Positions 12,196-51,327 of a DNA stretch of 64,000 nt are shown here, one piece after another (within the stretch, counting starts at the first letter, position 1; the number at the start of each line of letters is the position of its first letter). Where the stretch lies: assembly GCF_000182745.2 (NCBI RefSeq), contig NC_016027.1, forward strand, positions 2,641,001 through 2,705,000. Reading direction: 5' to 3'. This DNA is from Komagataeibacter medellinensis NBRC 3288. Its GTDB lineage: Bacteria; Pseudomonadota; Alphaproteobacteria; Acetobacterales; Acetobacteraceae. The position numbers and the translations under genes were made by a program. The notes below the pieces were generated by a model. That model saw nothing but the letters and a program-made list of their open reading frames with translations. It did not search any database and had not been told where the DNA came from.

Positions 12196-13271
12196 GCGAT
12201 ACAGTAAACGACACCATGGTCCCCACCCTGCTTGAACGCCGTGGGGCCATCCGCCAGCTTGACGGCCACGTAACCGGCTGCGCCATTGCGCGCGATAGCC
12301 AGCAGGTCGCCTTTGTCACGGCGGAAGGCGACATTGTGGTGGCCGACCGGCCTGACTGGGACCGCTCGGATGCGTGGAATGTCACGACCGTGCATGATGG
12401 CGCGATCCTGAGTATCGCACCCGATGCAGCAACCACCGGCTTCCTGACCGGCGGTGATGACAATGCCCTGCGCCGGATTATGGCCGATGGTAGCGTAAGT
12501 GACCTGGTACAGGGCCGTCGCTGGATCGAGCACGTCACCACCTGGTGCGACGATAGGGGCAGGGGCGGCGTGATCGCGTTCGCATCAGGCAAGCAGGTCG
12601 AACTGCGTGATGCGGGTGGACACGCGACACTCAAGGTGCTGGAGCATCCTTCCACCGTCAGTGGCATCGTGTTTGATGCCAAGGGCAAACGCATCGCGGC
12701 TTCGCATTACAATGGCGCATCAATGTGGTTCGTGCAGGCAAAGGTGGATACCGTGCGCCCGCTGGAATGGAAGGGCAGTCATATCGGTATTGCCATCCAC
12801 CCTGCCGGCGAGGCGCTGGTCACGTCCATGCAGGAATCGGAACTGCATGGTTGGCGGCTGTCGGATGGACATAACATGCGCATGAGTGGCTACCCGTCCA
12901 AGGTGCAGTCCATGGCGTTCACGCGTAACGGCAAGTGGCTGGTGACCAGTGGGGCGGACACGATTGTCATGTGGCCGTTCTTTGGTGGCGGCCCGATGGG
13001 CAAGCCCCCGGCAGAAGCCGGTGGCATCCCCGGCGTGATGTGTACCCGTGTGGCCTGCCACCCGGTGCATGACATCGTGGCGGCAGGCTTTGCCGATGGC
13101 TCGGTGCTCATGGCCGATACGGCGGCACAGCGTATCCTGCCGGTCTGTATGGGGGGGGGCGGTGCCGTCACGGCGCTGGCCTTCAGTCCCGACGGGTGCG
13201 GCCTTGCTTTCGGCACGGAAGATGGCCGTGCCGCCGTGGTCGATCTCTCGGCACGCCAGGAGACGGCCTGA
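12192..13271 (+). CDS. WD40-repeat beta-propeller protein coupled to CobW GTPase
   Basis: A protein of 359 residues built of degenerate WD40-like blades: recurring D-G-x-hydrophobic turns and blade endings such as TGGDDNALRRIM, KGKRIAASHYNG, NGKWLVTSGADTIVMWPF and DGCGLAFGTEDGRAAVVDL. About six or seven blades fit the length. No signal peptide or enzyme motif is seen, so it should be a cytoplasmic scaffold. The four-base overlap with the CobW gene suggests it works with that GTPase, perhaps as a docking partner or client adaptor; this is an inference from context. The dispersed repeat copy at 13307 follows its stop. Confidence 0.82.
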   Translation: MSDTVNDTMVPTLLERRGAIRQLDGHVTGCAIARDSQQVAFVTAEGDIVVADRPDWDRSDAWNVTTVHDGAILSIAPDAATTGFLTGGDDNALRRIMADGSVSDLVQGRRWIEHVTTWCDDRGRGGVIAFASGKQVELRDAGGHATLKVLEHPSTVSGIVFDAKGKRIAASHYNGASMWFVQAKVDTVRPLEWKGSHIGIAIHPAGEALVTSMQESELHGWRLSDGHNMRMSGYPSKVQSMAFTRNGKWLVTSGADTIVMWPFFGGGPMGKPPAEAGGIPGVMCTRVACHPVHDIVAAGFADGSVLMADTAAQRILPVCMGGGGAVTALAFSPDGCGLAFGTEDGRAAVVDLSARQETA

Positions 13272-13306
13272 AACGCCTGCGTGGAAAATATCGTGCAATC
13301 ACATGG

Positions 13307-13382
13307 AAGTTTTTGGTGAGACTTTTCCCTGAAAACTTCAGGGCATGTCGCCTTTGTGAAAGAAGGCGACATCCAGAAAATC
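13307..13382. repeat. Dispersed bipartite hairpin repeat, copy B
   Basis: About 76 bp: it starts AAGTTTTTGGTGA, has a first weak hairpin and then a strong one, TGTCGCCTT with AAGGCGACA (about 13345-13370), and ends CCAGAAAATC. It has the same order of parts as the copy at 38478 and the inverse of those at 19878, 45746 and 50620. It may terminate the WD40 transcript. A short AT-rich stretch follows and may hold the promoter of the next glycosyltransferase. Confidence 0.7.
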
Positions 13383-13458
13383 CTGTTATTGTTATCAATA
13401 CGCTGTTTTCACACAGTTTCTAAAGGCGTTCTGCCACGGGCAGAAGGAGAACGGTGCC

Positions 13459-19877: not shown

Positions 19878-19953
19878 AAGTTTTTGGGCGTCGCCTTTCT
19901 TCAAAAAGGCGGCGTTCTTTGCAGCTGTTTGAAAAAGATTCACCAAAAAACTT
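19878..19953. repeat. Dispersed bipartite hairpin repeat, copy C
   Basis: About 76 bp with near-perfect terminal inverted repeats, AAGTTTTTGG (19878) and CCAAAAAACTT (ends 19953). Internally there is a GTCGCCTTTCTTCAAAAAGGCGGC-type hairpin, written here in parts (arms about 19890-19897 and 19905-19913), and a weaker second hairpin. It lies exactly in the gap between the convergent stop codons of the COG2509 gene and priA, where it could terminate both transcripts. Confidence 0.8.
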
Positions 19954-31460: not shown

Positions 31461-31508
31461 CAGTTTCTGGGCGTTGTCTTTTGTCGTAAAAGCGATGTTT
31501 TCTAACAG
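31461..31508. repeat. Left half of a split, degenerate copy of the dispersed repeat
   Basis: CAGTTTCTGGGCGTTGTC and then AGCGATGTTTTCTAACAG match, with several mismatches, the left half of the copy at 19878 (GTTTTTGGGCGTCGCC, then GGCGGCGTTCTT). The matching right half is found only after the tandem array, at 31828. The assignment depends on weak similarity. Confidence 0.45.
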
Positions 31509-31572
31509 ATTGTCGGATTTGGACTTTTTGCGCAATAATATTGCTTGAATTATGAAAATAATAGAATTTCTA

Positions 31573-31767
31573 AAACAGGAAACAGGAAACAGGAAACAGG
31601 AAACAGGAAACAGGAAACAGGAAACAGGAAACAGGAAACAGGAAACAGGAAACAGGAAACAGGAAACAGGAAACAGGAAACAGGAAACAGGAAACAGGAA
31701 ACAGGAAACAGGAAACAGGAAACAGGAAACAGGAAACAGGAAACAGGAAACAGGAAACAGGAAACAG
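31573..31767. repeat. Perfect heptanucleotide tandem array, (AAACAGG) x 27.9
   Basis: The 7-bp unit AAACAGG repeats 27 full times plus six bases without a single mismatch over 195 bp. Because 7 is not a multiple of 3, every reading frame cycles through the same seven codons and none is a stop on either strand, so open frames here carry no coding evidence. Such perfect arrays usually change length by polymerase slippage. The array sits about 270 bp downstream of the ATPase stop and 250 bp beyond the rne stop codon. Confidence 0.97.
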
Positions 31768-31827
31768 AAATATGTTTTCATAAGTTATGAATAATATCCA
31801 TTCCAAATCCCGATCCGACAGCCTGAT

Positions 31828-31862
31828 AAAGCTTTTTTTGGAATAGATTCACCAAAAATATT
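31828..31862. repeat. Right half of the split dispersed-repeat copy
   Basis: AAAGCTTTTTTTGGA and GATTCACCAAAAATATT match the right end of the copy at 19878-19953 (GCTGTTTGAAAAAGATTCACC, then AAAAAACTT). It is separated from its left half (31461-31508) by 319 bp that contain the heptanucleotide array. Confidence 0.45.
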
Positions 31863-31958
31863 GATGATTTCAGGGTATTACCAGTCTGGTCTTTTCAGAC
31901 AGCCTGCCCGCGCTGGCTCATGGGCTGAATGTTGATGGCCGTGACGGGACCGCGTAAC

Positions 31959-36855: not shown

Positions 36856-38430
36856 ATGAGCATCGACCATCCCTCCTTTGGCCGTATCGATCCCAACCGC
36901 GTCATCATTTTCGACACCACGCTGCGTGATGGCGAACAGTCCCCCGGTTTTTCCATGAACCTGGCTGAAAAGCTGCGCATGGCCGAAGCGCTGGAAGAAC
37001 TGGGCGTGGATGTGATGGAAGCGGGTTTTCCCGTGGCATCGAAAGGGGATTTCGACAGCGTTCACCAGATCGCGCAGAAGGTGAAGGAGACCGTCGTGTG
37101 CGCTCTGGCGCGCAGTGGCGGCAGGAACGACATCGTCAGTGCGGGCGAGGCGATCAAGCCGGCAAGGCGTGGGCGCATCCACAACTTCATCTCTACCTCG
37201 CCGCTGCACATGAAGTACAAGCTGCGCATGGAGCCTGAAACGGTTCTGGAAGTGATCGAGGCGGGCAACCGCGCCGCGCGCCAGTTCACCGATGACGTGG
37301 AATGGTCCGCCGAGGACGGATCGCGGACCGATCCCGACTTTCTGTGCCGCTGCGTGGAAACCGCCATCCGCGCGGGTGCGACGACCATCAACATCCCCGA
37401 CACGGTCGGCTATTCTACCCCCGAGGATATGGCCCGCATTTTCAATGATCTGCGCACCCGCGTGCCGGGGGCGGATGGTGTTATCTTCTCCACCCACAAT
37501 CACAATGACCTGGGGCTGGGTGTCGCCAATACGGTTGCGGCGCTGAAGGCGGGCGCGCGGCAGGTGGAATGCACCATCAACGGCATTGGCGAACGCGCGG
37601 GCAATGCGGCGCTGGAGGAAATCATCATGGTGCTGCGCACGCGCCACGATGTGCTGCCCTACACCACTGGCATCCATACCGAACGCCTGCTGCGTACCTC
37701 ACGCATGCTGGCCACCATTACCGGCTTTGACGTGCAGCCCAACAAGGCCATCGTGGGCCGGAACGCGTTTGCGCATGAAAGCGGCATTCATCAGGACGGC
37801 ATCCTGAAGAATGCAGCGACCTATGAGATCATGACGCCGGAAAGTGTGGGCTGGAACCGGACATCGCTGGTGCTGGGCAAGCATTCGGGCCGCGCGGCCT
37901 TCCGCGATAAGCTCAAGGCGATGGGCTACGACAACATCGAGGAAACCGAGTTCAACGAAGCCTTCACCCGCTTCAAGGACCTGGCCGACCGCAAGAAAGT
38001 CATCTACGACGAAGACCTGGTCGCTCTGGTTGATGATGAAGTGCGCGACCATGCCCGCATCCGCTTCGTGTCACTGGATGTTACGGCCGGGTCCCGCCGT
38101 CCCGCCACCGCCGATTTGGTGCTGGAAGTCGATGGTGCGCGCAAGGAAGGTCATGCCGAAGGGCAGGGGCCGGTTGACGCGGCATTCAACGCCATCCGCA
38201 CCATTGTTGCCCATGATGCCACCCTGCAACTGTATTCCGTGGGTGCTGTGACCGAAGGCAGTGATGCGCAGGCCCGCACTTCGGTCCGTCTGGAAGAAGA
38301 TGGCAAGCTGGTGGACGGGCAGGGCGCGGATGCCGACACGCTGGTTTCCGCCGTGCGGGCTTATGTGCATGCGCTGAACAAGCTGCTGGTCAAGCGCGAT
38401 CGGGCAGAACCCGCAGCTCTGGATACCTGA
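36856..38430 (+). CDS. leuA: 2-isopropylmalate synthase
   Basis: A protein of 524 residues that condenses 2-oxoisovalerate and acetyl-CoA, the first committed step of leucine synthesis. The HMGL-like TIM barrel carries [16 protein letters not shown] (metal Asp and catalytic residues), the [12 protein letters not shown] segment and the metal His pair in [26 protein letters not shown] is also characteristic. The C-terminal LeuA regulatory domain (about 395-510) binds leucine for feedback inhibition. The ATG at 36856 is used. Expression is probably controlled by the leader peptide at 36604. Confidence 0.96.
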
Positions 38431-38477
38431 TGGGCTGTTTTCAAAAGACCGTCCGCGAAACGGGCGACAGGTGAGGG

Positions 38478-38555
38478 AAGGTTTCTGATGAAGCTTTTTT
38501 CAAAAAGCTTTGGATAAGGCTGCCTTCCTGAAAAAAGGCAGCACCCGGAAACGTC
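38478..38555. repeat. Dispersed bipartite hairpin repeat, copy D
   Basis: In the reverse orientation to the copy at 50620. It starts GGTTTCTGATGAAGC, has hairpin 1 (AAGCTTTTTT with CAAAAAGCTT, 38491-38510), then hairpin 2 (CTGCCTTCCTG with AAAAAAGGCAG, about 38520-38541), and ends GCACCCGGAAACGTC. It lies about 50 bases after the leuA stop and probably also helps end that transcript. Confidence 0.78.
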
Positions 38556-38612
38556 TGTTGTTCTTTATCGGAACTCTATTAGGTGGTGCGACCCTGTTAT
38601 AGTGCATGAACC

Positions 38613-38647
38613 GGCGCCCCACGGCAGGTCTCCCGCCGTGGGGCGCC
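38613..38647. terminator. Strong GC-rich hairpin downstream of the lipoprotein gene
   Basis: A perfect 13-bp stem, GGCGCCCCACGGC (38613-38625) with GCCGTGGGGCGCC (38635-38647), and a nine-base loop begins seven bases beyond the stop of the minus-strand lipoprotein gene. There is no T-run, so it may act with Rho or as an mRNA 3'-end protector. Confidence 0.55.
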
Positions 38648-38653
38648 GTGTGT

Positions 38654-39187
38654 TCAGTAACCGTCGTAATCTTCGGGATAGGCACCTTCCTGCTGCGGAT
38701 AGGCGGCCGGCCCGTAACCGCCCTGCCCGTAATAACCGGCGGGCTGCTGTCCATACCCGCCCTGCTGGCCATAATAGCCGCCCTGTTGAGGGTAGCTGGG
38801 CTGGGCATAGCCCCGCTGCTGTGCGCGATAGGCCGGGCGTGCGGTGCCTGCCGCCTGTGGGCAACTCTGTGGCGTGTAGCCCGGGGGTAGCACGCGGCCA
38901 TCGGGGCAGATGGTGGAGGGAGCCTCCCTGCGTGGGCGCCGTGTTGGCGTGGTGGCGGCTCCTATCGCGGCCCCACCTGCGGCACCGGCCAGCGCGCCAA
39001 TGGCAGCCCCCTGTCCGCCGCCTGCCAGTCCGCCAATAAGGGCGCCACCGCCCGCGCCAAGCAGGCCGCCGCCAATGGCGCGCTGGCCGGGGTCACGGGT
39101 GTCCTCGCATGCGCTCAGTCCAAGGCAAAGCCCGGCTGCCAGCAGGACTGCCGGGCGGATGGTCACGCGGGGGAATAATGTTTTCAT
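38654..39187 (-). CDS. Glycine-zipper outer-membrane-type lipoprotein
   Basis: A protein of 177 residues. The N-terminus KTLFPRVTIRPAVLLAAGL is a lipoprotein signal with lipobox L24-S-A-C27, so Cys27 should be lipidated. Next comes a long glycine zipper (about 35-72, repeats of GGGxxGxxxG such as LLGAGGGALIGGLAGG), a short Cys-containing segment (TICPDGRVLPPGY, then SCPQ), and a C-terminal tail rich in Gln, Gly and Tyr (QQGGYYGQQGGYG). Glycine-zipper lipoproteins of this kind occur in the envelope of many alphaproteobacteria. Function unknown. It is divergent from mreB. A start at 39286 would lose the lipobox geometry. Confidence 0.8.
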   Translation of the reverse strand: MKTLFPRVTIRPAVLLAAGLCLGLSACEDTRDPGQRAIGGGLLGAGGGALIGGLAGGGQGAAIGALAGAAGGAAIGAATTPTRRPRREAPSTICPDGRVLPPGYTPQSCPQAAGTARPAYRAQQRGYAQPSYPQQGGYYGQQGGYGQQPAGYYGQGGYGPAAYPQQEGAYPEDYDGY

Positions 39188-40538
<1,351 letters not shown>

Positions 40539-40681
40539 CGGACAGGACAAGTACGCTGCCTGCTGCGTGTGGAAGGCAGCGTGCCCAGGGGGAGACGCAG
40601 GACGATGCAGGTCCGGCGACCAGGCAGTATGGGACAACCCGGCAGGCGTGACGACAGCGTTACGCCTGAAGGGGCGGACTG

Positions 40682-41599
40682 ATGCCTGTTTCCATCCAGT
40701 TCCGTCAGGCGCTGGGCAAGCTGGTCCTGCCCGCGCTGATTCTTGTAGCCTGTGGCGTAATCCTGCTGGGCAAGGCGGATCGCGTGCTTGTCGAACGCCT
40801 GCGCATGCAGACCGCCGACCTGCTGGCCCCTGCCTACGCGCTGGTGGAGTGGCCGCAGGCCAAGCTGCGCTGGCTTTCGGGTAACTTACAGGACATCCGT
40901 AATCTTGAGGCCGAGAACATCCGCCTGCGCGCCGAGAACGAATCGCTGCGGCACTGGTATGATGTGGCGGCGGCGCTGGCAGATGAAAACGGCACGCTGA
41001 AAGCCAACCTGCACTGGATTCCCGATAACGCGCCCACCTTCGTCAGTGGCCGCGTGGTGCGCGATACGAGTGGGCTGTACGCGCGCGCGGTGCTGCTGGC
41101 GATCAACCCCGATACAGCGGTGCGCAAGGGGGGCATTGCGCTGGACGGCGCGGGACTGGTCGGGCGCGTGACCGAGGTGGGCAGGCGCTCGGCGCGTGTG
41201 CTGTTGATTACCGACTCGTCCAGCCGCCTGCCGGTAACCCTTGAATCCAGCCACGCTGCCGCCATCATGGCGGGCGACAACTCGCCCCTGCCGCGCATCA
41301 TCTTCTATCCGCAGGATAATGTGCCGATCGAGGGGGAGCGTGTCGTGACCAATGGTGAGATCGAGAGCCTGCCCGCTGGCCTGCCGGTGGGGCATGTGCA
41401 TTATGTGCGCCCCGGCCAGCCCGTGGTGGTGCCGGCGGCAGCATTGGACCATGTCGATATTCTGCGCATATTCGACTATGCCGACAGCGTGGCCCCCCCC
41501 GATGCGCCGGGCCGTGTGCCGCTGCCCCCACCAGTTGGGGGTACGCTGTCGCTGCCCACGCAGTTTCTGCCCCATGTGAACCAGGGGCTGCATGGATGA
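40682..41599 (+). CDS. mreC: Rod shape-determining protein MreC
   Basis: A bitopic inner-membrane protein of 305 residues. One N-terminal TM helix (about 15-35, LVLPALILVACGVILLG) is followed by a coiled-coil (about 65-105, with LEAENIRLRAENESLRHWY), then two beta-barrel lobes and a Pro-rich C-terminal tail. It interacts with MreD, PBP2 and RodA in the periplasm. The TGA overlaps the mreD ATG (ATGA). A gap of 143 bases from mreB contains no separate feature. Confidence 0.95.
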   Translation: MPVSIQFRQALGKLVLPALILVACGVILLGKADRVLVERLRMQTADLLAPAYALVEWPQAKLRWLSGNLQDIRNLEAENIRLRAENESLRHWYDVAAALADENGTLKANLHWIPDNAPTFVSGRVVRDTSGLYARAVLLAINPDTAVRKGGIALDGAGLVGRVTEVGRRSARVLLITDSSSRLPVTLESSHAAAIMAGDNSPLPRIIFYPQDNVPIEGERVVTNGEIESLPAGLPVGHVHYVRPGQPVVVPAAALDHVDILRIFDYADSVAPPDAPGRVPLPPPVGGTLSLPTQFLPHVNQGLHG

Positions 41600-42162
41600 A
41601 GAACTTCACGCCGCCGCCCATCCGTCCCACCATCCACCCGCGCACTGGGCTTGGCTACCGCATTGACCATGGCGTGCGCAGTGCCGTGCCCTGTCTGTTC
41701 GTATTTTTCGCCACCCTTGTGCTGTCCGCGCCGCTCAACCTGCCGGGGCAGGTGGAACTCATGCCCGCGCTGGTCATGGGCACGGTGTTCCTGTGGTCGG
41801 TATTCGTGCCTGCGGCCATGCCTTCGCTTGCGGTGTTCGTGCTGGGATTATGGGCGGATATACTCAGCTTCGGGCCGGCCGGGGTCATGCTGCTCATGAT
41901 GCTGATCGTGCATGGTGTGGCTCTGTCCGGGCGTTATATGCTGTCACGGGTTAATTTTTTTGTACTCTGGCTTGTGTTTGGCGTGGTGATGGTGGGGGTT
42001 ACGGCGCTACAATGGGCGCTATGTTCCGCACTGGCCTTGCATATTGTGGAGTTTCTGCCTTTTGTTTTCGAGACAGTCCTGTCCTTCGGCAGTTTTCCTG
42101 TCCTGTATGCAGGGTTTGTCTGGACTTACCGTTTTGTCGTCAATAACACGGATCGATCCTGA
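41596..42162 (+). CDS. mreD: Rod shape-determining protein MreD
   Basis: A protein of 188 residues with about five TM helices (e.g. VPCLFVFFATLVLSAPL, MPSLAVFVLGLWADIL). It completes the MreCD complex of the elongasome. Sequence identity in this family is low, so the call rests on topology, size and position: it overlaps mreC by four bases and precedes mrdA. A basic N-terminal tail (residues 1-25) is cytoplasmic. Confidence 0.9.
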   Translation: MKNFTPPPIRPTIHPRTGLGYRIDHGVRSAVPCLFVFFATLVLSAPLNLPGQVELMPALVMGTVFLWSVFVPAAMPSLAVFVLGLWADILSFGPAGVMLLMMLIVHGVALSGRYMLSRVNFFVLWLVFGVVMVGVTALQWALCSALALHIVEFLPFVFETVLSFGSFPVLYAGFVWTYRFVVNNTDRS

Positions 42163-42198
42163 GACGGATGTAACAGTGAGTCCGGGCCGGATGAGTGC

Positions 42199-44118
42199 AT
42201 GAAGTTGCGTAAGAAGAAATCCGGCACCCGGCTCATGTCCCGCCCCGAGGAAGGCAAGAACCCTTCACGTGGCGTCTTTACCCGCCGTGCCCTGCTGCTC
42301 ATGGCGGCGCAGGGAGCAGTACTGGGTGCATTGGGGGAACGCCTGTACGGGTTGCAGGTTCTCAACGGCAGCCATTATGCAAAGCTTGCGGAAAGCAACC
42401 GCCTCAGCAAACGCTTCTTTGCGCCCCCGCGTGGACGCATTACCGACCGGTTCGGTATTTCGGTCGCGGCCAACCGCGTCAACTGGCGTGCGTTGCTGCT
42501 GGCGGAGGAAACCAGCGACATTCCCGGCACGCTGGAGCGTTTTGCCCAGCTGGTGCCGCTGGAGCCGCGCGACACCACGCGCATCGAGCATGAACTGCGC
42601 CACAAGCGGCGCTTCATTCCGATCATGCTGCGTGATTTCCTGTCATGGGATGACATGGCGCGGCTGGAGCTTAACATGCCTTCCCTGCCGGGTGTGCTGA
42701 TCGATGTCGGCACTACGCGGGTCTATCCTTTTGGCCCGTTGCTGGCGCATGTGGTGGGTTATGTTGCCCCACCTGCGGAAAAGGACGTGGTGCACAATGC
42801 CGAACTGGCGTTGCCGGGCATGCGCGTGGGCCGCTCGGGCATTGAGCAGACGCAGGATAACAATCTGCGCGGACAGGTCGGGTCGGTCGAGATGGAGGTC
42901 AACGCCGTGGGCCGCGTCATGGCCGAGCTTGACCGTGATGAGGGGCTGACGGGCGACGAGATCACACTGACCATTGACAGCGGCCTGCAGCAGCAGGTTC
43001 TCGGCCACATTGCCGACCAGTCGGCCAGCGCCGTGGTGATGGACTGCCGCAATGGCGAGGTGCTGGCCATGGTCAGCAACCCCTCTTTCGATCCCGCGCT
43101 GTTCGATAGTGGTGTCAGCCAGGCGCAGTGGGTCGAATGGACCAATAACAGCCAGACACCGCTGATCAACAAGGCGGTATCGGGGCTGTACCCGCCCGGT
43201 TCCACTTTCAAGCCCGCCGTAGCCATGGCGGCGCTGCGCGCGGGCACGCTCTCGCCCAGTGATCGGATCAGCTGCCCCGGTTATATTGACGTGGGCGGCA
43301 CGCGCTTCCACTGCTGGTCGCGCTACGGGCACGGTTCGATCAACCTGCGTCAGGGTCTTAAATATTCGTGCGATGTGTTCTTCTATGAAGTGGCGCGCCG
43401 CACCGGCATGGACGTGATTGCCGCAACATCCGAACTGTTCGGGCTTGGGGCCAAGTTGCCCGAGATTGAACTGCCGCATGTGCGCCAGGGTCTTATTCCC
43501 ACCCCCACATGGCGGCGCGCGCATGGTCATCACTGGAATGGGGGGGACACCATTGTCAGTGGCATCGGGCAGGGATTTGTGCAGGTCACGCCGCTGCAAC
43601 TGGCTACCTATGCCTCGCGCATTGCCACAGGGCGCAATGTGCAGCCGCACCTGATCCGTTCGGTTGCGGGGCGGCTTGGGGGGCTGACCGATCTGGGCCA
43701 CGCGCCGGGCATGGACATGCCTGCGTCCTTTTTCGATGATATCCGCGCAGGCATGTATGCCGTGGTGAATGAGGAAGGCGGCACCGCGCCCAAGGCCCGG
43801 CTGAATATTCCCGGCGTGCAGATGGCGGGCAAGACCGGTTCGGCGCAGGTGCGCCGTGTCTCGCGGGCTATGCGTGAGAGCGGGCACTTCAATTCCGCCA
43901 GCCTGCCTTGGGAATACCGGCCCCATGCGCTGTTCATCTGTTACGCGCCCTATGATGCGCCGCGTTATGCCACTGCTGTGGTGATCGAGCATGGCAATGC
44001 GGGTGCCGATGTGGCTGCCCCCCTTGCGCGCGACATCATGAGCGATACCCTGCGCCGGGATCCGGTCAATCACCGTGAACCGCCGGGGCAGGAAGTGGCG
44101 CAGGCCGACGTGGACTGA
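42199..44118 (+). CDS. mrdA: Penicillin-binding protein 2 (peptidoglycan transpeptidase)
   Basis: A protein of 639 residues that crosslinks peptidoglycan for cell elongation. N-terminal TM anchor (about 29-45), PBP dimerisation domain with PPRGRITDRFG, then the transpeptidase: the active-site SxxK is Ser335-T-F-Lys338 in PPGSTFKP, SxN is probably in YSCD, and KTG is in MAGKTGSAQVRR. The FxxxRxSG-like segment and GIGQGFVQVTPLQLA also fit class B PBPs. It partners with RodA, encoded next. The beta-lactam target site is intact. Confidence 0.96.
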   Translation: MKLRKKKSGTRLMSRPEEGKNPSRGVFTRRALLLMAAQGAVLGALGERLYGLQVLNGSHYAKLAESNRLSKRFFAPPRGRITDRFGISVAANRVNWRALLLAEETSDIPGTLERFAQLVPLEPRDTTRIEHELRHKRRFIPIMLRDFLSWDDMARLELNMPSLPGVLIDVGTTRVYPFGPLLAHVVGYVAPPAEKDVVHNAELALPGMRVGRSGIEQTQDNNLRGQVGSVEMEVNAVGRVMAELDRDEGLTGDEITLTIDSGLQQQVLGHIADQSASAVVMDCRNGEVLAMVSNPSFDPALFDSGVSQAQWVEWTNNSQTPLINKAVSGLYPPGSTFKPAVAMAALRAGTLSPSDRISCPGYIDVGGTRFHCWSRYGHGSINLRQGLKYSCDVFFYEVARRTGMDVIAATSELFGLGAKLPEIELPHVRQGLIPTPTWRRAHGHHWNGGDTIVSGIGQGFVQVTPLQLATYASRIATGRNVQPHLIRSVAGRLGGLTDLGHAPGMDMPASFFDDIRAGMYAVVNEEGGTAPKARLNIPGVQMAGKTGSAQVRRVSRAMRESGHFNSASLPWEYRPHALFICYAPYDAPRYATAVVIEHGNAGADVAAPLARDIMSDTLRRDPVNHREPPGQEVAQADVD

Positions 44119-44168
44119 TCCTGGTCTCCGCGCGTCGCGCCATGTCCATGCCTGTTGTGGAGAATGGA

Positions 44169-45326
44169 ATGAAATTCCAGAAGCGCCTGCTGCGCGCCGA
44201 ACCCAATTTCCAGATCCTGACCAAGCTGTGGCAGGTCAACTGGCTGTATGTGATCCTGATCTGCGCGCTGGCAGTGGTGGGGTATATAGCGCTGTATTCC
44301 GCAGGTGGCGGCACGTCGCGCCTGTTTGCCGGCCCGCAGTCCCTGCGCTTCTGCTTTGGCGTGGTCATGATGCTGGGGATCGCGTTGATGAGCCCGGCCT
44401 TCCTGGTACGTATGGCGTGGCCGCTCTATATCTTCTCGCTTATCCTGCTGGTGGCGGTGCTGCGCATGGGGCATGTGGGCAAGGGGGCGGAGCGATGGCT
44501 CATGCTGGGCGGCATGCAGGTCCAGCCATCCGAACTGGCCAAGATTGCGCTGGTGCTCATGCTGGCGGCGTGGTTCCACAAGATCAGCTACCGCAACATG
44601 GGCAACCCGTTGCTGCTGGTCCCGCCCGCCCTGATGGTGCTGGCGCCCGTGGCCCTTGTGCTCAAGGAGCCCAATCTGGGCACTGCCGTTATCATCGGTA
44701 CGGTGGGGGCAAGCATGTTTTTTGGCGCGGGGATGCGGCTGTGGCAGATCGCGCTGCTCATCCTGCCGGTACCCATGCTGGCCAAGGTTGCCTACAGCCA
44801 CCTGCATGATTACCAGAAGGCGCGGGTCACTACTTTCCTGCATCCTGAAAGCGATCCGCTGGGGGCGGGCTACAATATCATCCAGTCCAAGATCGCGCTG
44901 GGGTCTGGCGGTATGTGGGGGCAGGGCTACCTGCACGGCACGCAGGGACAGCTTAACTTCCTGCCTGAAAAGCAGACCGATTTCATTTTCACCATGATTG
45001 CCGAGGAATGGGGTTATGTTGGCGGCATTACCGTCATTGGCATGCTGCTGCTGCTGGTCTTTGGCGGCATGCTGATCGCCATGCGCAGCCGCAACCAGTT
45101 CGGTCGCCTGCTGGGGTTGGGCATTTCGATGAACTTCTTCCTGTACTGCGCGGTCAACCTGTCCATGGTGATGGGGGCGATCCCGGTTGGTGGCGTGCCG
45201 CTGCCGCTTATTTCCTATGGCGGGTCAGCCATGCTCATGGTCATGTTTGGTTTCGGGCTGCTCATGTCCGCATGGGTGCATCGCAATTCCACCTTTGGCG
45301 AGGCCACACAGGGGGAAAAGGACTGA
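44169..45326 (+). CDS. mrdB: Lipid II polymerase RodA
   Basis: A protein of about 385 residues of the SEDS family with ten predicted TM helices; it polymerises lipid II glycans with PBP2. Conserved segments: QPSELAKIALVLMLA, FLPEKQTDFIFTMIAEEWG and MGAIPVGGVPLPLISYGGSAM near the end. The start at 44169 has GGAG six bases upstream, better than 44142. The TGA overlaps the ATG of the DUF3293 gene. Confidence 0.95.
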   Translation: MKFQKRLLRAEPNFQILTKLWQVNWLYVILICALAVVGYIALYSAGGGTSRLFAGPQSLRFCFGVVMMLGIALMSPAFLVRMAWPLYIFSLILLVAVLRMGHVGKGAERWLMLGGMQVQPSELAKIALVLMLAAWFHKISYRNMGNPLLLVPPALMVLAPVALVLKEPNLGTAVIIGTVGASMFFGAGMRLWQIALLILPVPMLAKVAYSHLHDYQKARVTTFLHPESDPLGAGYNIIQSKIALGSGGMWGQGYLHGTQGQLNFLPEKQTDFIFTMIAEEWGYVGGITVIGMLLLLVFGGMLIAMRSRNQFGRLLGLGISMNFFLYCAVNLSMVMGAIPVGGVPLPLISYGGSAMLMVMFGFGLLMSAWVHRNSTFGEATQGEKD

Positions 45327-45718
45327 TGGCGGCCATTATGCCGCCCACGCCTGCCGTTGCGCGTGCCTACCGCCTCAGCACCTATCACGCACCCGGCCTG
45401 CCGGTTGTGCGCATTGGCCACCGGCCGTCGTGGCGGGGCGTGGTGCCGCAGGGTGATGTGGTCCTGCTCAGCGCGTACAATCCTGGCGGCAGGCGGCGGC
45501 CCGATGGCTGGAACCGGCGTATGATGCGGCGGCTGGCCAGTGCCCTGGCGGGGTTGCCACATGTGCTGGGTGAAGGGCGGCTGGGGCGGTGGTCCGAACC
45601 GCTTTATGCCGTCCGAATGCCGCTTGCGCGCGGGATCGTGCTGGCGCGGCGGTTCCGGCAGAACGCGGTGGTCGTGCTGCATGGCAATAGGCCCGCGCGA
45701 CTGGTGTACCTGGCCTGA
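45326..45718 (+). CDS. DUF3293 family protein
   Basis: A protein of 130 residues. Conserved features of DUF3293 are AYRLSTYHAP at the front, the LLSAYNPGG segment (AYNP), a helix with DGWNRRMMRRLASALAG, RWSEPLYAV and LARRFRQNAVVVL. No enzyme motif or TM helix is seen. It overlaps rodA (TGATG) and has GGGGGAAAAGG upstream, so it is likely made with the elongasome genes. The reason for linkage is unknown; function uncharacterised. Confidence 0.78.
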   Translation: MAAIMPPTPAVARAYRLSTYHAPGLPVVRIGHRPSWRGVVPQGDVVLLSAYNPGGRRRPDGWNRRMMRRLASALAGLPHVLGEGRLGRWSEPLYAVRMPLARGIVLARRFRQNAVVVLHGNRPARLVYLA

Positions 45719-45745
45719 CCTTGAAAAAACCGGATAACCGTAAGG

Positions 45746-45822
45746 AAGTTTTTGGGTGTCGCCTTTTTTCAAAAAGGTGACGTCTTCTGAAGCTTTTTTG
45801 AAAAAAGCTTCACCAAAAACTT
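45746..45822. repeat. Dispersed bipartite hairpin repeat, copy E (best preserved)
   Basis: A 77-bp element with perfect 10-bp terminal inverted repeats, AAGTTTTTGG (45746-45755) and CCAAAAACTT (45813-45822). Internally it has hairpin 2 (GTCGCCTTTT with AAAAAGGTGAC, about 45758-45782) and hairpin 1 (GAAGCTTTTTT with AAAAAAGCTTC, about 45789-45811). It follows the DUF3293 stop and with copy F fills the gap up to glyS. Confidence 0.88.
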
Positions 45823-45849
45823 TTGTATGATTACGGGCTGTTTGCCGGG

Positions 45850-45915
45850 CAGCTTTTGAGAAACCTTAAAAAGAATGCCGCCCTTTTGCAAAAAAGGCGG
45901 CATCCAGGAACGTCT
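45850..45915. repeat. Dispersed bipartite hairpin repeat, copy F (partial)
   Basis: It lacks the left terminal repeat, but keeps a GCAGCTTTTGAG segment, then the strong hairpin ATGCCGCCCTTTT with AAAAAAGGCGGCAT (45874-45903) and the typical end CCAGGAACGTC. It lies 28 bases from copy E, making a tandem doublet, and just downstream of the glyS stop on the minus strand. Confidence 0.75.
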
Positions 45916-45935
45916 CTTGTTTTGCAGGCAGTCTC

Positions 45936-47996
45936 CTAGCCTTCAATCTGGCTGAAATCCGCGATCAGTACCGTCATGCGGCACAGTTCGGACAGCAGGC
46001 GCAGGCGGTTGGCGCGGACTGCCGGGTCGGGATCGTTGACTGTGACCACTTCAAAAAAGCGATCCAGCACGGGGCGCAGGCTGGCAACATCACGCATGGC
46101 GTCGGCATAGCGTTCCTGTGCTGTGGCCTGTTCCACGGCGGGGATGGCCTTCTGCAGGGCCTCGGCCAGAACCTTTTCCTCTGTCTGGGTGTACAGCGCG
46201 GGGTTGGGCGTGCCTTCATGCGGGCCGTCCTTGCGGTCTTCGATACGCAGGATGTTGGCCGCGCGCTTGGTCGCCGCCAGCATGTTGCGCCCGTCATCGG
46301 TGGCCAGCATGTCGGCTATGGCGGTGGCACGTGCCAGCAGGCGCACGATGTCGGTATCGGTATTGCCAACCGATACAGCGGCCAGAATGTCATGCCGCGC
46401 ACCTTCGCTGCGCAACTGTACGCGCAGGCGGTCAGCTATGAACTCGGGCAGCACATCAAGGTCGGGTGCAAGACGCAGGGCTTCGGGCAGGCCCTGTGCC
46501 GCTTCCCACAACACCTTGGCCAGGTCCAGCCGCAGCCCGTTTTCACGGATGATGCGGATCACGCCCAGCGCCGCGCGCCGCAGGGCATAAGGATCGCCTG
46601 AGCCACCGGGCTTTTCACCCACCGCGAAGAAGGCGACCAGCATGTCGATTTTGTCGGCTAGCGCCACGGCCACCGCAACCGGGGCGGTGGGCACGTCATC
46701 CTGAGGGCCGCGTGGCATGTAATGCGCGCCAATGGCATTGGCCACGGCATCGGGTTCCCCGTCATGACGGGCGTAATAAGCCCCCATGATGCCCTGCAAT
46801 TCGGGAAACTCGCCAACCATGCCGGTGGTCAGGTCGGCCTTGCACAACAGGGCCGCGCGTTCGGCCTGCGCCACATCGGCCCCGGTCATGCCTGCCAGCA
46901 CGCCTGCAAGGCGGGTGATGCGTTTTACACGCTCGCCCTGGCTGCCAAGGGATGCATGGAAGACAATCCGGTCAAGGTCGGGTACCCGGCTTGCCAGCGT
47001 GCGCGCACGGTCCAGATCCCAGAAATGGCGGGCATCGGCAAAACGCGCGCGCAGCACGCGCTCGTTGCCCGCAATGGTCAGCGCCCCGCCATCGCTGGGC
47101 AGCAGGTTGGCGACAAACGCAAAGCGCGGCGCGGCCGAGCCATCGCTGTTGCGCAGCGCGAAGTAGCGCTGGTTCACGCGCATGGAGACCTGCATCACCT
47201 CGGGTGGCAGGGTCATGAACGCATCATCGATCTGGCCAAGGAAGGGTACCGGCCATTCAGTCAGGCCCGCCACTTCATCAATCAGACCGGGATCGGCCAC
47301 CACGTTCAGCCCTTCCTCACGCGCAAGGCGGGCAACACCTTCGGCAATGGTGGTGCGGCGCACGCTTGCATCGGGTTCCACCTGGCGGGCGCGCAGGCCG
47401 TTCAGCCATTCCTTCGTGCTGGCAACGGCAAAGGCACCGGGCGCGGTAAAGCGGTGGCCTTCGGTCAGGTTATCCGCCTTCAGGCCATGGCCGTTATCTT
47501 CGCCTTCCGCCAGCGTGAAGTCCACGACCTGACCATCAAGCAGGCACACGATCCGGCGCAGCGGGCGCACCCATGTAAAGGCGCTGCTAACACCCCAACG
47601 CATGGATTTGGGCCATGGGAAGCGACGCAGCAGGCCGGGCAGCACATCGGCAACCTGCCGTGCCGCGGCAACGGGCGGGATCGTGCGGTGCAGTACCCAG
47701 AAGCCGTTTTCAAGCACCAGTGCGTCACGTTCCACGCCATGCTTGCGCATGAAGCCGGCCAGCGCCTTTTCCGGCGCGCTTTCACGCGGGCCGCGTTCAT
47801 CTACCGTGCCGCCGGGCACCGTTGCATCCACTGTCAGGGACAGCGCAATGCGGCGCGGGCCGGCATAGGACGTGGCGCCCTGCGGGTTGAGCGGGGCCAG
47901 TGCCTCGCACACAAGGCGTTCAAGGTCCGCCGCCGCGCGTGCCTGCATGCGGGCGGGGATTTCCTCGGAGAAGAGTTCGATCAGAAGTTCGGGCAT
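45936..47996 (-). CDS. glyS: Glycyl-tRNA synthetase beta subunit
   Basis: A protein of 686 residues, the large subunit of the alpha2beta2 glycyl-tRNA synthetase. N-terminal MPELLIELFSEEIPARMQ is the family's signature; AYYARHDGEPDAVANAI (mid-chain) and the HD-like and anticodon-binding helical regions (from about 550, YADAMRDVASLRPVLDRFFE) follow. Length is normal. glyQ lies six bases upstream on the same strand, as expected. Confidence 0.96.
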   Translation of the reverse strand: MPELLIELFSEEIPARMQARAAADLERLVCEALAPLNPQGATSYAGPRRIALSLTVDATVPGGTVDERGPRESAPEKALAGFMRKHGVERDALVLENGFWVLHRTIPPVAAARQVADVLPGLLRRFPWPKSMRWGVSSAFTWVRPLRRIVCLLDGQVVDFTLAEGEDNGHGLKADNLTEGHRFTAPGAFAVASTKEWLNGLRARQVEPDASVRRTTIAEGVARLAREEGLNVVADPGLIDEVAGLTEWPVPFLGQIDDAFMTLPPEVMQVSMRVNQRYFALRNSDGSAAPRFAFVANLLPSDGGALTIAGNERVLRARFADARHFWDLDRARTLASRVPDLDRIVFHASLGSQGERVKRITRLAGVLAGMTGADVAQAERAALLCKADLTTGMVGEFPELQGIMGAYYARHDGEPDAVANAIGAHYMPRGPQDDVPTAPVAVAVALADKIDMLVAFFAVGEKPGGSGDPYALRRAALGVIRIIRENGLRLDLAKVLWEAAQGLPEALRLAPDLDVLPEFIADRLRVQLRSEGARHDILAAVSVGNTDTDIVRLLARATAIADMLATDDGRNMLAATKRAANILRIEDRKDGPHEGTPNPALYTQTEEKVLAEALQKAIPAVEQATAQERYADAMRDVASLRPVLDRFFEVVTVNDPDPAVRANRLRLLSELCRMTVLIADFSQIEG

Positions 47997-48002
47997 GGTC
48001 TC

Positions 48003-48893
48003 TTATTCCTCGCCCGCCAGCCATGTTTCACAGCAGCGTTTGGCTAGCGTGCGCACACGACCGATATAGGAAGCGCGCTCGCTTACGCTGATCACGCCGC
48101 GCGCATCAAGCAGGTTGAACAGGTGGCTGGCCTTGAGGCACTGGTCATAGGCGGGCTGCGCCAGCCCGGCTTCGGCAAGGGCGGTGGATTCGCGCTCGGC
48201 ATCAATGAAGTGACGGTGCAGCATGTCCACATCGGCTACTTCAAAGTTGTGGCGGGAGTAGTCCTGCTCCGCGCGCAGGAACACGTCGCCATATTTGAGG
48301 CCCTGTCCGTTGAAATCGAGGTCATAGACATTCTCGATCCCCTGCACGTACATCGCGAGGCGTTCCAGCCCGTAGGTTAGTTCGGTCGAAGGCATGACGG
48401 TGGGAATGCCGCCAACCTGCTGGAAATAGGTGAACTGCGTCACCTCCATTCCGTCGCACCAGACTTCCCACCCCAGGCCCCAGGCGCCGATGGTGGGGTT
48501 TTCCCAGTCATCTTCCACAAAACGGATGTCGTGTTCCAGCGGGTCGATGCCAATGGCGCGGTAGCTGTCGAGTAGCAGTTTCTGGCTGTCTTCCGGCGTG
48601 GGTTTGAGCAGCACCTGATACTGGTAGTAATGCTGCAGCCGATTCGGGTTTTCACCGTAACGGCCATCGGACGGGCGGCGGCAGGGCTGCACGTAGGCGG
48701 CCTTCCACGGTTTTTTTCCCAGTGCGCGCAGCGTGGTGTGTGGTGAGAGCGTGCCCGCGCCGACTTCCGTGTCGTAGGGCTGGAGAATGGCGCAGCCCTG
48801 ATCGGACCAGAACTGGTGCAGCTTCAGGATCAGACCCTGAAACGACAGCGGGCGCGGGGTGGTGGGTGATCGGGGCACGGGGGCCGGGTCCAT
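48003..48893 (-). CDS. glyQ: Glycyl-tRNA synthetase alpha subunit
   Basis: A protein of 296 residues, the catalytic subunit (class II). It carries [18 protein letters not shown], the motif with [20 protein letters not shown] (motif 2 region), [18 protein letters not shown] and the Gly-rich [18 protein letters not shown]. The length is typical. A TGTA-rich leader or glycine riboswitch is not apparent in the 214 bases upstream, which separate it from the divergent DUF2076 gene. Confidence 0.96.
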
Positions 48894-49107
48894 GAACAGG
48901 ATGCTCCGCTAAACAGGGACAGGAGTATGCGCCATCTGGCGCAAAATCGCGCGGCAGCATACCGTTATGCCGCCCCGACCGGAAGGGAGGGCATGCAACC
49001 GGCCTGCATCCGTCCCGCATGGCGGGTGTCGGGTCTTGCACAATGCGCTCCGACGCGCCACATCGGATGGGGAGACGCTATCCCCACCCCAAGGCAGGAC
49101 AGACAGC

Positions 49108-49875
49108 ATGAATGACCAGGAACGTGATCTGATCACACAGTTTTTTGCCCGTGTGGGTGGTGTTACCACAGGGAGCGTGCCGCAGACGGCATCTTCCCTC
49201 CCGCCGATCGACCCGCAGGCCGATCAGTATATCGGGCAGATGTTCCAGAAATATCCCGAAGCGCGCTACCGTGTAACCCAGATGGCCGTGGTGCAGGAAG
49301 CGGCACTGGCCGAGGCACAGAACCGGATTCGCCAGCTCCAGTGGCAGCTCCAGCAGGCGCAGCAGCAACTCCAGCAACAGCAGGCCGCTCCTCCCCAGCC
49401 GCAGCCCAGCACTGGCGGCGGTTTCTTCAGCGGCATGTTCGGCGGCGGGCAGCGCGCGCAGGCGGCACCACCGCCGGGTTGGGGTGGGGGAGCCGCCCCC
49501 TCAAGCCCGCCGCCGCAGCCGGTCTACCCGCCGGGCATGCAGCCGGGGATGTTCCGCTCGGGTGGTTCGGGCTTCCTCGGTTCCGCGCTGACCACGGCGG
49601 CCGGTGTGGCCGGTGGCATGATGATGGGCAACGCGTTGACCGGCCTGTTCAGCGGCCATCATGACGAGGGTGGCTTTGCCAGTGGCATGCCGCAGGGCGG
49701 CACGGGCGAGACCATTATCAATAACAACTATGGTGACAGCACGGCCGGCACCGGCGGGGCCGATCCGTTCGCGGGTGGTGGCACCAGTGCGGATTCCGGG
49801 TTTGACGCCGGTGGCGGTGATTCGGGCGGGTTTGACGGCGGCGGTTTTGATTCGGGTGATGACAACAGTTTCTGA
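49108..49875 (+). CDS. DUF2076 family protein with Gln- and Gly-rich tail
   Basis: A protein of 255 residues. N-terminal DUF2076 segment: MNDQERDLITQFFARVGG, and later MFQKYPEARYRVTQMAVVQEAAL, followed by a long helix with a coiled-coil of Gln heptads (about 75-95, RIRQLQWQLQQAQQQLQQQ). The remainder is Gly/Pro/Ser-rich, with a hydrophobic glycine-zipper-like stretch (SALTTAAGVAGGMMMGNALT, about 160-180) and an acidic Gly/Asp/Phe tail. DUF2076 proteins are likely periplasmic ligand-binding or membrane-associated scaffolds, but function is unknown. AAGGCAGGA precedes the start at 49108. A strong terminator follows. Confidence 0.83.
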   Translation: MNDQERDLITQFFARVGGVTTGSVPQTASSLPPIDPQADQYIGQMFQKYPEARYRVTQMAVVQEAALAEAQNRIRQLQWQLQQAQQQLQQQQAAPPQPQPSTGGGFFSGMFGGGQRAQAAPPPGWGGGAAPSSPPPQPVYPPGMQPGMFRSGGSGFLGSALTTAAGVAGGMMMGNALTGLFSGHHDEGGFASGMPQGGTGETIINNNYGDSTAGTGGADPFAGGGTSADSGFDAGGGDSGGFDGGGFDSGDDNSF

Positions 49876-49898
49876 TCGACCGGGTTGAAGGAATACTG

Positions 49899-49929
49899 AA
49901 AAGGGCATCCGCTACGGATGCCCTTTTTT
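49899..49929 (+). terminator. Rho-independent terminator after the DUF2076 gene
   Basis: A GGGCATCCG with CGGATGCCC stem, loop CTA, is preceded by AAAA and followed by TTTTTTAT. It ends 12 bases before the alkB start, so alkB must be expressed by read-through or from a promoter within or before the hairpin. Confidence 0.9.
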
Positions 49930-49941
49930 ATGGGGTTGGAC

Positions 49942-50601
49942 ATGGCACAGCAGGAATTTGCACTGGACCCGCCGCAATGTGGCAGCCATGTGCCCGAATG
50001 GCTGGATACGGGGGCCTGCGTAATGCGGGGACTGGCTGTGACTCATGCTGCGGAGATGATTGCGGGTATAAGGGGCATTGCCCGTGCCGCCCCCTTTCGC
50101 CGTATGCCAACGCCTGGCGGCGGCGTAATGTCGGTCGCCATGACAGGCTGCGGGGCCGCTGGGTGGTGCAGCGACACGCAAGGCTACCGTTACGTGGCGC
50201 GCGACCCGCGCACGGACCGGCCCTGGCCGCCCCTGCCCGATGCATGGCGCGAGCTTGCCTGCGGGGCAGCGGAGCGTGCGGGATATACGGGGTTCGTGCC
50301 CGATGTCTGCCTGATCAATGGCTACCGCCCCGGTGCGCGCATGGGCCTGCATCAGGACCGTGATGAACGGCTGGACGCACCAGTGGTCTCGCTCTCTTTC
50401 GGGCTGCCTGCACTTTTTTTATGGGGCGGCCTGAAGCGCACGGATGCATGCCGGCGCATACCGCTCCTGCATGGGGATGTTGTGGTGTGGGGCGGCCCGT
50501 CGCGGCTTGTATTTCACGCTATCGCCCCGTTGCGCGCGGGTGAGCACCCGGTTACAGGCCCCTGTCGTTACAACCTGACGTTCAGGCGGGTCGGTGCATA
50601 G
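49942..50601 (+). CDS. alkB: AlkB-family Fe(II)/2-oxoglutarate DNA repair dioxygenase
   Basis: A protein of 219 residues that removes alkyl lesions such as 1-methyladenine by oxidative demethylation. Metal ligands are in LHQDRDE (His-x-Asp) and VFHAIAP (His); the 2-oxoglutarate Arg region is RYNLTFR at the C-terminus. GWCSDTQGYRY and PDVCLINGYRPGARMG are typical AlkB segments. The ATG at 49942 follows GGGGTTGGAC. It sits immediately after a terminator and has no ada gene nearby. Length fits the family. Confidence 0.93.
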   Translation: MAQQEFALDPPQCGSHVPEWLDTGACVMRGLAVTHAAEMIAGIRGIARAAPFRRMPTPGGGVMSVAMTGCGAAGWCSDTQGYRYVARDPRTDRPWPPLPDAWRELACGAAERAGYTGFVPDVCLINGYRPGARMGLHQDRDERLDAPVVSLSFGLPALFLWGGLKRTDACRRIPLLHGDVVVWGGPSRLVFHAIAPLRAGEHPVTGPCRYNLTFRRVGA

Positions 50602-50619
50602 CGTATTGATGGATGATTA

Positions 50620-50693
50620 AAGTTTTGGGTGCCCCCTTTATTTAAAAAGGCGGCACTCCCTGAAGCTTTTTGAAAAAGCTTCATCAGAAACTT
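50620..50693. repeat. Dispersed bipartite hairpin repeat, copy G
   Basis: About 74 bp: AAGTTTTGGGTGCC at the left, a hairpin with arms GCCCCCTTTA and TAAAAAGGCGGC, then GAAGCTTTTT with AAAAAGCTTC (50662-50682), ending TCAGAAACTT. It lies between the alkB stop and the convergent eda stop, where it could act as a shared terminator. Confidence 0.8.
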
Positions 50694-50712
50694 TTTCCTT
50701 ATTTTTAGCCTG

Positions 50713-51327
50713 TCAGGCGGCAAGCGTTGTCGCCTGCCGGGCGCGTGCGGTAATGGCCGTCACATCGGGCGTGCCAGCGGGCACCAGCCACGACCCTCCC
50801 ACGCACAGCACGGACGGCAGCGCCAGCCACTCTGCTGCCGTTTCTGCCTTGATGCCGCCGGTGGGGCAGAAGCGCGCCTGGCCAAACGGGGCGGACAGTG
50901 CCTTGAGCGCGGGAATGCCACCCGCCGCCGTTGCGGGGAAGAACTTGAAATGCGTCAGCCCCAGGTCCAGACCGCGCATGATGTCGCTGGCATTGGCGGT
51001 GCCGGGCAGCAGCGGCACGCTGGCTGCGCGCGCGGCATTGGCCACATTGGCGGTCAGGCCGGGGCTTACGATAAAGCGCGCACCGGCATCAACCGAACGC
51101 TTCAGGTCATCGCCGTTCAGCACGGTGCCAGCGCCCACAACAGCACCATCTACCTTTGCCATCTCGGCAATCACTTCCAGCGCGCACGGCGTGCGCAGCG
51201 TGACTTCCAGCGCGCGCAGGCCACCGGCCACAAGGGCCTCGGCCACGGGGCGGGCATGGGCGGGGTCGTTGATGATCAGCACCGGGATAACCGGGGCAAT
51301 CGTCATGATGTCTTCAATCTGGGCCAT
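50713..51327 (-). CDS. eda: KDPG aldolase (Entner-Doudoroff)
   Basis: A TIM-barrel protein of 204 residues that cleaves 2-keto-3-deoxy-6-phosphogluconate to pyruvate and glyceraldehyde-3-phosphate. Markers: ALEVTLRTPCALEVI (Glu of the active site), GAGTVLN, the catalytic Lys in LTHFKFFPA and CPTGGIK (phosphate loop). Length matches. It follows edd by 48 bases on the same strand, completing the two-step pathway by which acetic acid bacteria metabolise gluconate. Confidence 0.95.
   Translation of the reverse strand: MAQIEDIMTIAPVIPVLIINDPAHARPVAEALVAGGLRALEVTLRTPCALEVIAEMAKVDGAVVGAGTVLNGDDLKRSVDAGARFIVSPGLTANVANAARAASVPLLPGTANASDIMRGLDLGLTHFKFFPATAAGGIPALKALSAPFGQARFCPTGGIKAETAAEWLALPSVLCVGGSWLVPAGTPDVTAITARARQATTLAA

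Follow-up and report, generated by a model that had tools for sequence, protein, structure and literature searches.

The 64-kb window, the whole stretch of Komagataeibacter DNA analysed here, carries a short dispersed repeat in the gaps at the ends of its genes. The best-preserved copy, at 45746–45822 on the minus strand (97.6 bits against R1, the covariance model described below), lies in a convergent gap between the end of an ORF at 45718 (+) and the end of a gene at 45936 (−). It is 77 bp long, its ends AAGTTTTTGG and CCAAAAACTT are perfect over 10 bp, and it encloses two inner hairpins; the 77-bp copy with perfect 10-bp ends and two stems that a sequence-only reading had placed at 45746 is thus borne out on the sequence. 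Its gap is shared with an older, degenerate copy in the opposite orientation (45840–45913, +, 28.0 bits), within which a hairpin followed by a T run (45873–45905, −) fits the canonical intrinsic terminator pattern. Three further copies occupy convergent gaps: 19878–19953 (−, 71.6 bits; gap 19864/19971), 38479–38554 (+, 76.4 bits; gap 38430/38654) and 50619–50693 (−, 72.7 bits), the last between an ORF end at 50601 (+) and a gene end at 50713 (−). The copy at 13307–13382 (+, 65.8 bits) is found in a tandem gap, downstream of the stop of a plus-strand gene at 13271. The five highest scores in the window are not independent of the model, since those five copies were among its inputs. At the window edge, only the 3′-end of a copy is present (1–25, +, 15.9 bits, E 0.11); the whole copy, at 2640950–2641025 of the host contig C3, starts about 50 bp before the window and scores 68.4 bits.

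All seven R1 matches in the window had been listed in the sequence-only reading, the degenerate one as 45850. That list also held a split copy, which gave no match to R1 in the window search and is recognised by eye only. Its left half (31461–31507, −) shows about 62% identity within the repeat family and its right half lies at 31828–31870 (−), the limits of both having been set by eye; the main repeat appears to be broken at approximately 31508–31825 by another small repeat. This second repeat has the ends CAGATTGTCGGATTTGG and CCAAATCCCGATCCGACAGCCTG and contains an expanded (AAACAGG)n array, while a relative of it without the array has nine matches in the genome, one of them at the window locus. 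The end sequence AAGTTTTTGG, with at most one mismatch, occurs at seven sites in the window where 1.28 are expected, a number reached in none of 100 shuffles. A scan of the window against Rfam returned a tRNA as the sole match above the gathering score and no match for the repeat.

Copy number and distribution of the repeat

The host genome (G000) comprises 3.51 Mb in eight contigs, with contig C3 accounting for 3.14 Mb. Model R1 was built on 34 copies, namely 30 host-genome copies found by similarity (44 matches, the best 40 of which were scored) and four further window copies, all aligned in one orientation. Its three-stem structure was named by hand, because the RNAalifold consensus confounded A and T runs that belong to separate hairpins. 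The host genome holds at least 139 matches at E ≤ 0.01, including at least two that overlap each other; weak copies may be missed, since scoring covered the best 150 of 1436 candidates from the first look. With 139 genome matches to one model, the family does not reduce to a few chance hairpins that lack a common structure, the outcome that had been named as counting against it. The matches are split 70 to 69 between the strands and all lie on C3; the seven remaining contigs, 376 kb in total, have no match. Plasmids of other Komagataeibacter do carry copies, unlike these seven contigs, and five of the six plasmid records with a match are from Komagataeibacter. Three short cores of 46–47 bp (C3:516731, 1591141 and 1815891) look like deletion products in which one hairpin contributes its first half and the other its second.

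At E ≤ 1e-6, R1 matched all 19 Komagataeibacter genomes, with 26 to at least 150 matches per genome. In a family-level sample of 150 genomes, 19 had a match. Strong matches in this sample (best E near 1e-26) were found in Komagataeibacter and in one other genus (g73), and the best E-values in the remaining genomes with a match ranged from 5e-8 to 8e-13. Weaker matches in other genera (for example g21, g34, g56, g68 and g80), with best E-values of about 1e-9 to 1e-12 and up to at least 32 per genome, are possibly other two-hairpin repeats. Among the matches listed in a search of the open-access literature on repeats of Komagataeibacter and acetic acid bacteria, no title or abstract start describes the family.

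The 77-bp repeat as the core of a mobile unit

The 77-bp sequence is only the inner core of a longer element. Full copies are about 162 bp long (156–163 bp in well-preserved ones) and end in 15-bp inverted repeats, GAGRCTGTTTGAAAA and TTTTCAAACARTCTC. Four host copies have approximately 160 bp in common, with inverted repeats near GAGGCTGTTTGAAAA and TTTTCAAACAATCTC that are set off from the core by about 30 and 24 bp, and some other host copies retain decayed remnants of them at the same distances. For instance, the window copy at 13307 is flanked by GAGACGGCCTGAAAC (13260–13274, +, five mismatches, 32 bp from the core) and TTTTCACACAGTTTC (13406–13420, +, two mismatches, 23 bp from the core), which gives a whole element of 161 bp when these remnants are included. 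A 1300-bp query around one full copy returned matches across the genus, many of which span from terminal repeat to terminal repeat. Among the 139 host matches, which were found by their core, a terminal repeat with at most three mismatches is present at the expected distance on the left in eight, on the right in seven and on either side in 10, compared with 0 and 0 in a swapped control.

Target duplications, proposed earlier as a check, were found: identical 3-bp flanks occur in 17 of 24 well-preserved copies, and all of them are TNA. The set comprises 20 copies picked for completeness from the genus matches and four from the host, and includes one mis-anchored copy (L162) and one insertion counted in two genomes (L159 and L160). 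For the full copy at C3:1788496, the flanks are joined at a single TCA, with no insert, in relatives G001 (L169) and G003 (L170). The homology there is short, about 75–110 bp per side, and a similar stretch exists elsewhere in the host genome, so these sites may be other copies of the stretch rather than the same locus. No clean empty site was found in the relatives for the copy at C3:552417. With terminal inverted repeats, 3-bp target duplications, insert-free targets and many copies, the family is a miniature inverted-repeat transposable element (MITE).

Candidate transposases

The sequence-only reading had left the choice between a REP/BIME and a MITE. The repeat is palindromic, dispersed, extragenic and present in both orientations, as would be expected of REP/BIME elements that depend on a TnpA_REP (RAYT) transposase for their movement. 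However, the TnpA_REP-type transposase that the same reading had proposed to look for was not found: the Y1_Tnp domain (PF01797) is present in none of the 19 Komagataeibacter genomes, while the control was positive in five of 14, and the REP/RAYT identity was rejected once this search came up empty. The 3-bp duplications and 15-bp terminal repeats are traits of DDE-type MITEs, and the consensus ends of the palindrome (AAGTTTTTGG and CCAAAAACTT) carry neither a GTAG nor a CGTC tag. In addition, CGTC-type REPs are reported in PMC3733652 to be absent from Acetobacteraceae. A REP/BIME origin is accordingly regarded as extremely improbable, and of the two earlier suggestions it is the MITE that stands.

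IS5-type transposase genes (PF13340) are present in all 19 genus genomes, in numbers that vary widely (63 matches in G011, 54 in G002 and six in G008). We take these resident elements to be of the IS1031 type; the IS1031 group of IS5 generates 3-bp duplications. Some of the resident elements have ends of the shape GNGNCTG... beside TNA-like bases, and because of this related end shape an IS5-type transposase is probably what moves the MITE in trans. Reading of 30 IS5-type loci revealed no element with ends identical to those of the MITE. The closest pair (L191:1388–2775, in G012) consists of an IS5-type gene between MITE-like ends with three and one mismatches, 1388 bp apart and with unequal flanks, and is a lead towards the cognate transposase. 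In the host genome, the terminal-repeat pattern with one mismatch occurs at 21 places, none of which form an IS-sized pair. The sites near C3:1712604 and 1817175 adjoin IS-like genes, but a search for a matching second end found none at either, so neither is put forward as the source; the terminal-repeat site at 142777 presumably adjoins a different IS.

Position of copies relative to genes

Genes were called with a home-made caller trained on the fetched stretches, which misses overlapping ORFs (such as those ending at 45718 and 50601), so that the gap classes and lengths given here are approximate. The earlier observation that copies sit in gene-end gaps in both orientations holds genome-wide, with the correction that the gaps are mainly convergent ones. 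The 139 host copies are located in convergent gaps (102), tandem gaps (34), divergent gaps (two) and at the edge of a stretch (one), and none lies inside a called gene. Most tandem copies (31/34) are closer to the upstream stop than to the next start, and 93 of the 102 convergent copies have a stop within 50 bp. The sequence TGAAAA as stop context is found beside nine of 175 stops at copies compared with five of 474, which is a modest hint. The syntenic stretches of 18 relatives, which were picked around copies, contain 88 matches when some of the weak ones are set aside: 60 in convergent gaps, 26 in tandem gaps and two at an edge, with none divergent and none within genes.

Since the fetched stretches had been chosen by their copies, a systematic sample of 20 × 20 kb (400 kb) was also taken. 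At 27 bits or more, copies are present in 12 of 43 convergent, two of 176 tandem and none of 40 divergent gaps; for gaps of 60–1000 bp the corresponding numbers are 11/31, 2/85 and 0/34. When weaker matches (20–23 bits) are included, the counts for convergent, tandem and divergent gaps become 13, 4 and 1 in all gaps and 12, 3 and 1 in those of 60–1000 bp. In gaps of up to 1000 bp, copy density is 1.44 per kb in convergent gaps, compared with 0.10 in tandem and 0 in divergent ones.

This distribution could in principle be that of a purely parasitic MITE, which inserts anywhere and survives where it is harmless, gene-end gaps being the safest places, and whose terminator-like features are useless to the host. 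Enrichment in convergent gaps also fits the mere tolerance of insertions, an argument that is made in PMC3049150 for pneumococcal repeats in such gaps. Full copies with intact duplications indicate mobility, and one of them, C3:1788496, sits in a divergent gap. Against pure parasitism stand the steepness of the density difference between convergent and other gaps, and the observation that the core remains recognisable in 139 matches of which just 10 keep a terminal repeat, although these were copies found by their core. Two further points against it, the lower divergence of the stems and the persistence of the element in particular gaps, are set out below. Taken with these, a wholly parasitic element is considered unlikely, if still a serious contender.

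Retention of the core in two convergent gaps

Retention was compared across the genus at two convergent gaps. The window gap (45720–45935) was located in all 18 relatives, with nearby DNA 85–90% identical, and the element is present there in 15 of them, five of these being partial matches (31–35 bits). In G004, G009 and G012 the gap is reduced to 32–35 bp and has no element. The minus-strand copy (45746) is seen in G000, G008 and G011 only, while the plus-strand copy (45840) is older. Reduced forms, consisting of a GCCGCC hairpin and a T run alone, occupy the gap in G005, G010, G013 and G017, and G007 has a single long palindrome. The idea that the older copy decayed after the new one took over was dropped, as several species with a single copy also carry partial copies. 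Among 13 named loci around this gap, R1 matches just the two from Komagataeibacter; that of Gluconacetobacter johannae has a GC-rich hairpin, by eye.

At the second gap (C3:2047855–2047954; orthologues L213–L229), the element is found in 17 of the 18 relatives. It has the host orientation in six (G003, G004, G007, G008, G011 and G012, the last shortened) and the opposite orientation in eleven, which could reflect either in-place inversion or repeated insertion. In G009 an unrelated GC-rich hairpin takes the place of the element. Retention of the core without its mobile ends in the same gaps across the genus speaks against pure tolerance of a parasite, without being decisive.

Predicted fold of the core and its flanking T tracts

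Structure prediction for RNA of the consensus core gives a three-way junction for both strands, in which AAGTTTTTGG and CCAAAAACTT pair as the outer stem around two hairpins. For four of the window copies, a set without those at 13307 and 19878, six folds were compared with shuffles and lie 2.9 to 6.9 sd below them. Copies of 45 bits or more were used in the analyses of flanks, T tracts and stem changes. Among 115 copies, the best fold includes the outer stem in 82 when one strand is read and in 71 for the opposite strand. The core is preceded by A-rich and followed by T-rich sequence: six or more T residues among the 12 bases that follow the core are found in 89/115 copies read on one strand and 82/115 read on the other, compared with 6.8% after gene stops.

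The stem-change analysis was further restricted to copies of 70–82 bases, which left 113 of the 139. In these, matched changes that keep pairing fill 63 cells compared with 33.2 ± 5.2, a value as high being reached in none of 500 whole-arm shuffles. Divergence from the consensus is 0.115 at stem positions and 0.215 in the rest of the core, which argues against terminator-like features that are of no use to the host. Arm-to-arm correction within a palindrome can produce matched changes too; given this, and because the choice of copies relied on a model that favours paired positions, the excess is not proof of RNA function. Shared descent could add to it as well. Among 34 near-consensus copies there was no excess of compensated changes over the tool's own control.

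A hairpin followed by a T-rich tract, the arrangement of an intrinsic terminator, is predicted on both strands. The stem directly before the T tract is the AT-rich outer one rather than a GC-rich hairpin, so the core is not a textbook terminator. In a simple terminator scan of 38000–51000, which was not above chance (14 calls compared with 10.8 ± 3.4 in shuffles), the degenerate copy was the only one of the repeats to be called and the intact copies were not. Classic terminators were noticed by eye in some element-free convergent gaps, but counting did not bear out a mutual exclusion with the element: a strict scan of convergent gaps of 40–400 bp found canonical terminators in three of the 25 that lack the element and in 15 of the 99 that carry it, some gaps possibly belonging to both sets.

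The same fold could instead act after transcription, by blocking 3′ exonucleases or by offering an RNase site that sets the 3′-ends or the stability of mRNAs, with termination taking place elsewhere, for example by Rho. A location directly downstream of stop codons, together with the stable folds predicted for the two strands, suits such a role equally well, and PMC10969869 describes cleavage by RNase III of transcripts that bear Correia elements. On the other hand, the T-rich tracts that directly follow the core on each strand are what termination would call for and are not required for stabilisation, and a preference for convergent over tandem ends would be left unexplained. A purely post-transcriptional role therefore seems to us improbable, a shade more so than pure parasitism. 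Of the functions suggested in the sequence-only reading, the ending of transcripts is the best supported, on the grounds of where the copies sit, how they are predicted to fold, their T tracts and their persistence in related species, from which a stop of the polymerase itself is inferred.

A proposed two-way terminator spread by transposition

The most probable explanation, and one held with reasonable confidence, is that the repeat is a MITE family of Komagataeibacter whose core would serve as a bidirectional terminator at gene ends. In the proposed sequence of events, the ~162-bp MITE, probably moved in trans by an IS5-type transposase, inserts at TNA with duplication of 3 bp, as is seen in the flanks of well-preserved copies. 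Its 77-bp centre is predicted to fold in either direction of transcription into an outer 10-bp stem and two hairpins of about 10 bp, followed by a T-rich tract. A copy at a gene end, above all between converging genes, would then stop transcription from both sides. Copies at gene ends appear to outlast speciation as their terminal repeats decay; such retention was observed at two gaps, and selection may account for it. As gene-end copies persist while the mobile ends are lost, we propose that the core now widely serves as a two-way terminator at gene ends.

A broader history can be put forward only tentatively, being somewhat less probable than its negation: an element with its own two-way stop sign may have come to occupy a large fraction of all convergent gene ends in the genus. 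Landing there would have come at low cost, the mobile ends would have been lost, the A-rich flank would sometimes have been lent to a stop codon, and the copies would have been kept as three-way-junction terminators indifferent to orientation.

If this is correct, terminators, which are usually thought to evolve locally, can spread by transposition and be co-opted in bulk, in this case within a genus used for cellulose and vinegar production. The family could then be a source of ready-made two-way terminators. It would also hold a warning for genome comparison, because copies vary in place and orientation between species. The family makes testable an old question, namely whether the short repeats that bacteria carry where genes converge are parasites that the host tolerates or components that do a job.

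Comparison with known repeat families

Several known systems share some features with the Komagataeibacter MITE. REP/BIME elements, as described in PMC3733652, are likewise short extragenic palindromes that are often found in convergent and tandem gaps; unlike them, the Komagataeibacter repeat has no Y1 transposase and no GTAG or CGTC tag at its ends, and leaves target duplications. Some IS5-type elements (PF13340) of the same genomes resemble the MITE in having GNGNCTG... ends beside TNA-like bases, but the MITE is without a gene. Correia elements of Neisseria also have terminal repeats, exceed 100 copies and affect transcripts, according to the review in PMC10969869. That account places Correia copies mostly upstream of genes, with promoters, whereas in Komagataeibacter the copies are downstream of genes and almost absent from divergent gaps. 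The same review considers it conceivable that MITEs create terminators.

In Neisseria and Pasteurellaceae, DNA uptake sequences form a repeat family that likewise supplies many of the terminator hairpins of a genome (PMC1852404). These are described there as paired uptake signals of 9–11 nt with no transposable unit, unlike the Komagataeibacter MITE. SPRITE of Streptococcus pneumoniae, as presented in PMC3049150, is also a terminator-like dispersed repeat near coding sequences that is enriched between convergent genes, and its co-option as terminators is proposed by the same authors who argue for tolerance in convergent gaps. According to that description, the terminal repeats of SPRITE are AAAA/TTTT only and target duplication could not be established. 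In contrast, the Komagataeibacter MITE has a predicted three-way-junction core and terminal repeats of 15 bp, duplicates TNA on insertion, has insert-free targets and is retained in two gaps across the genus.
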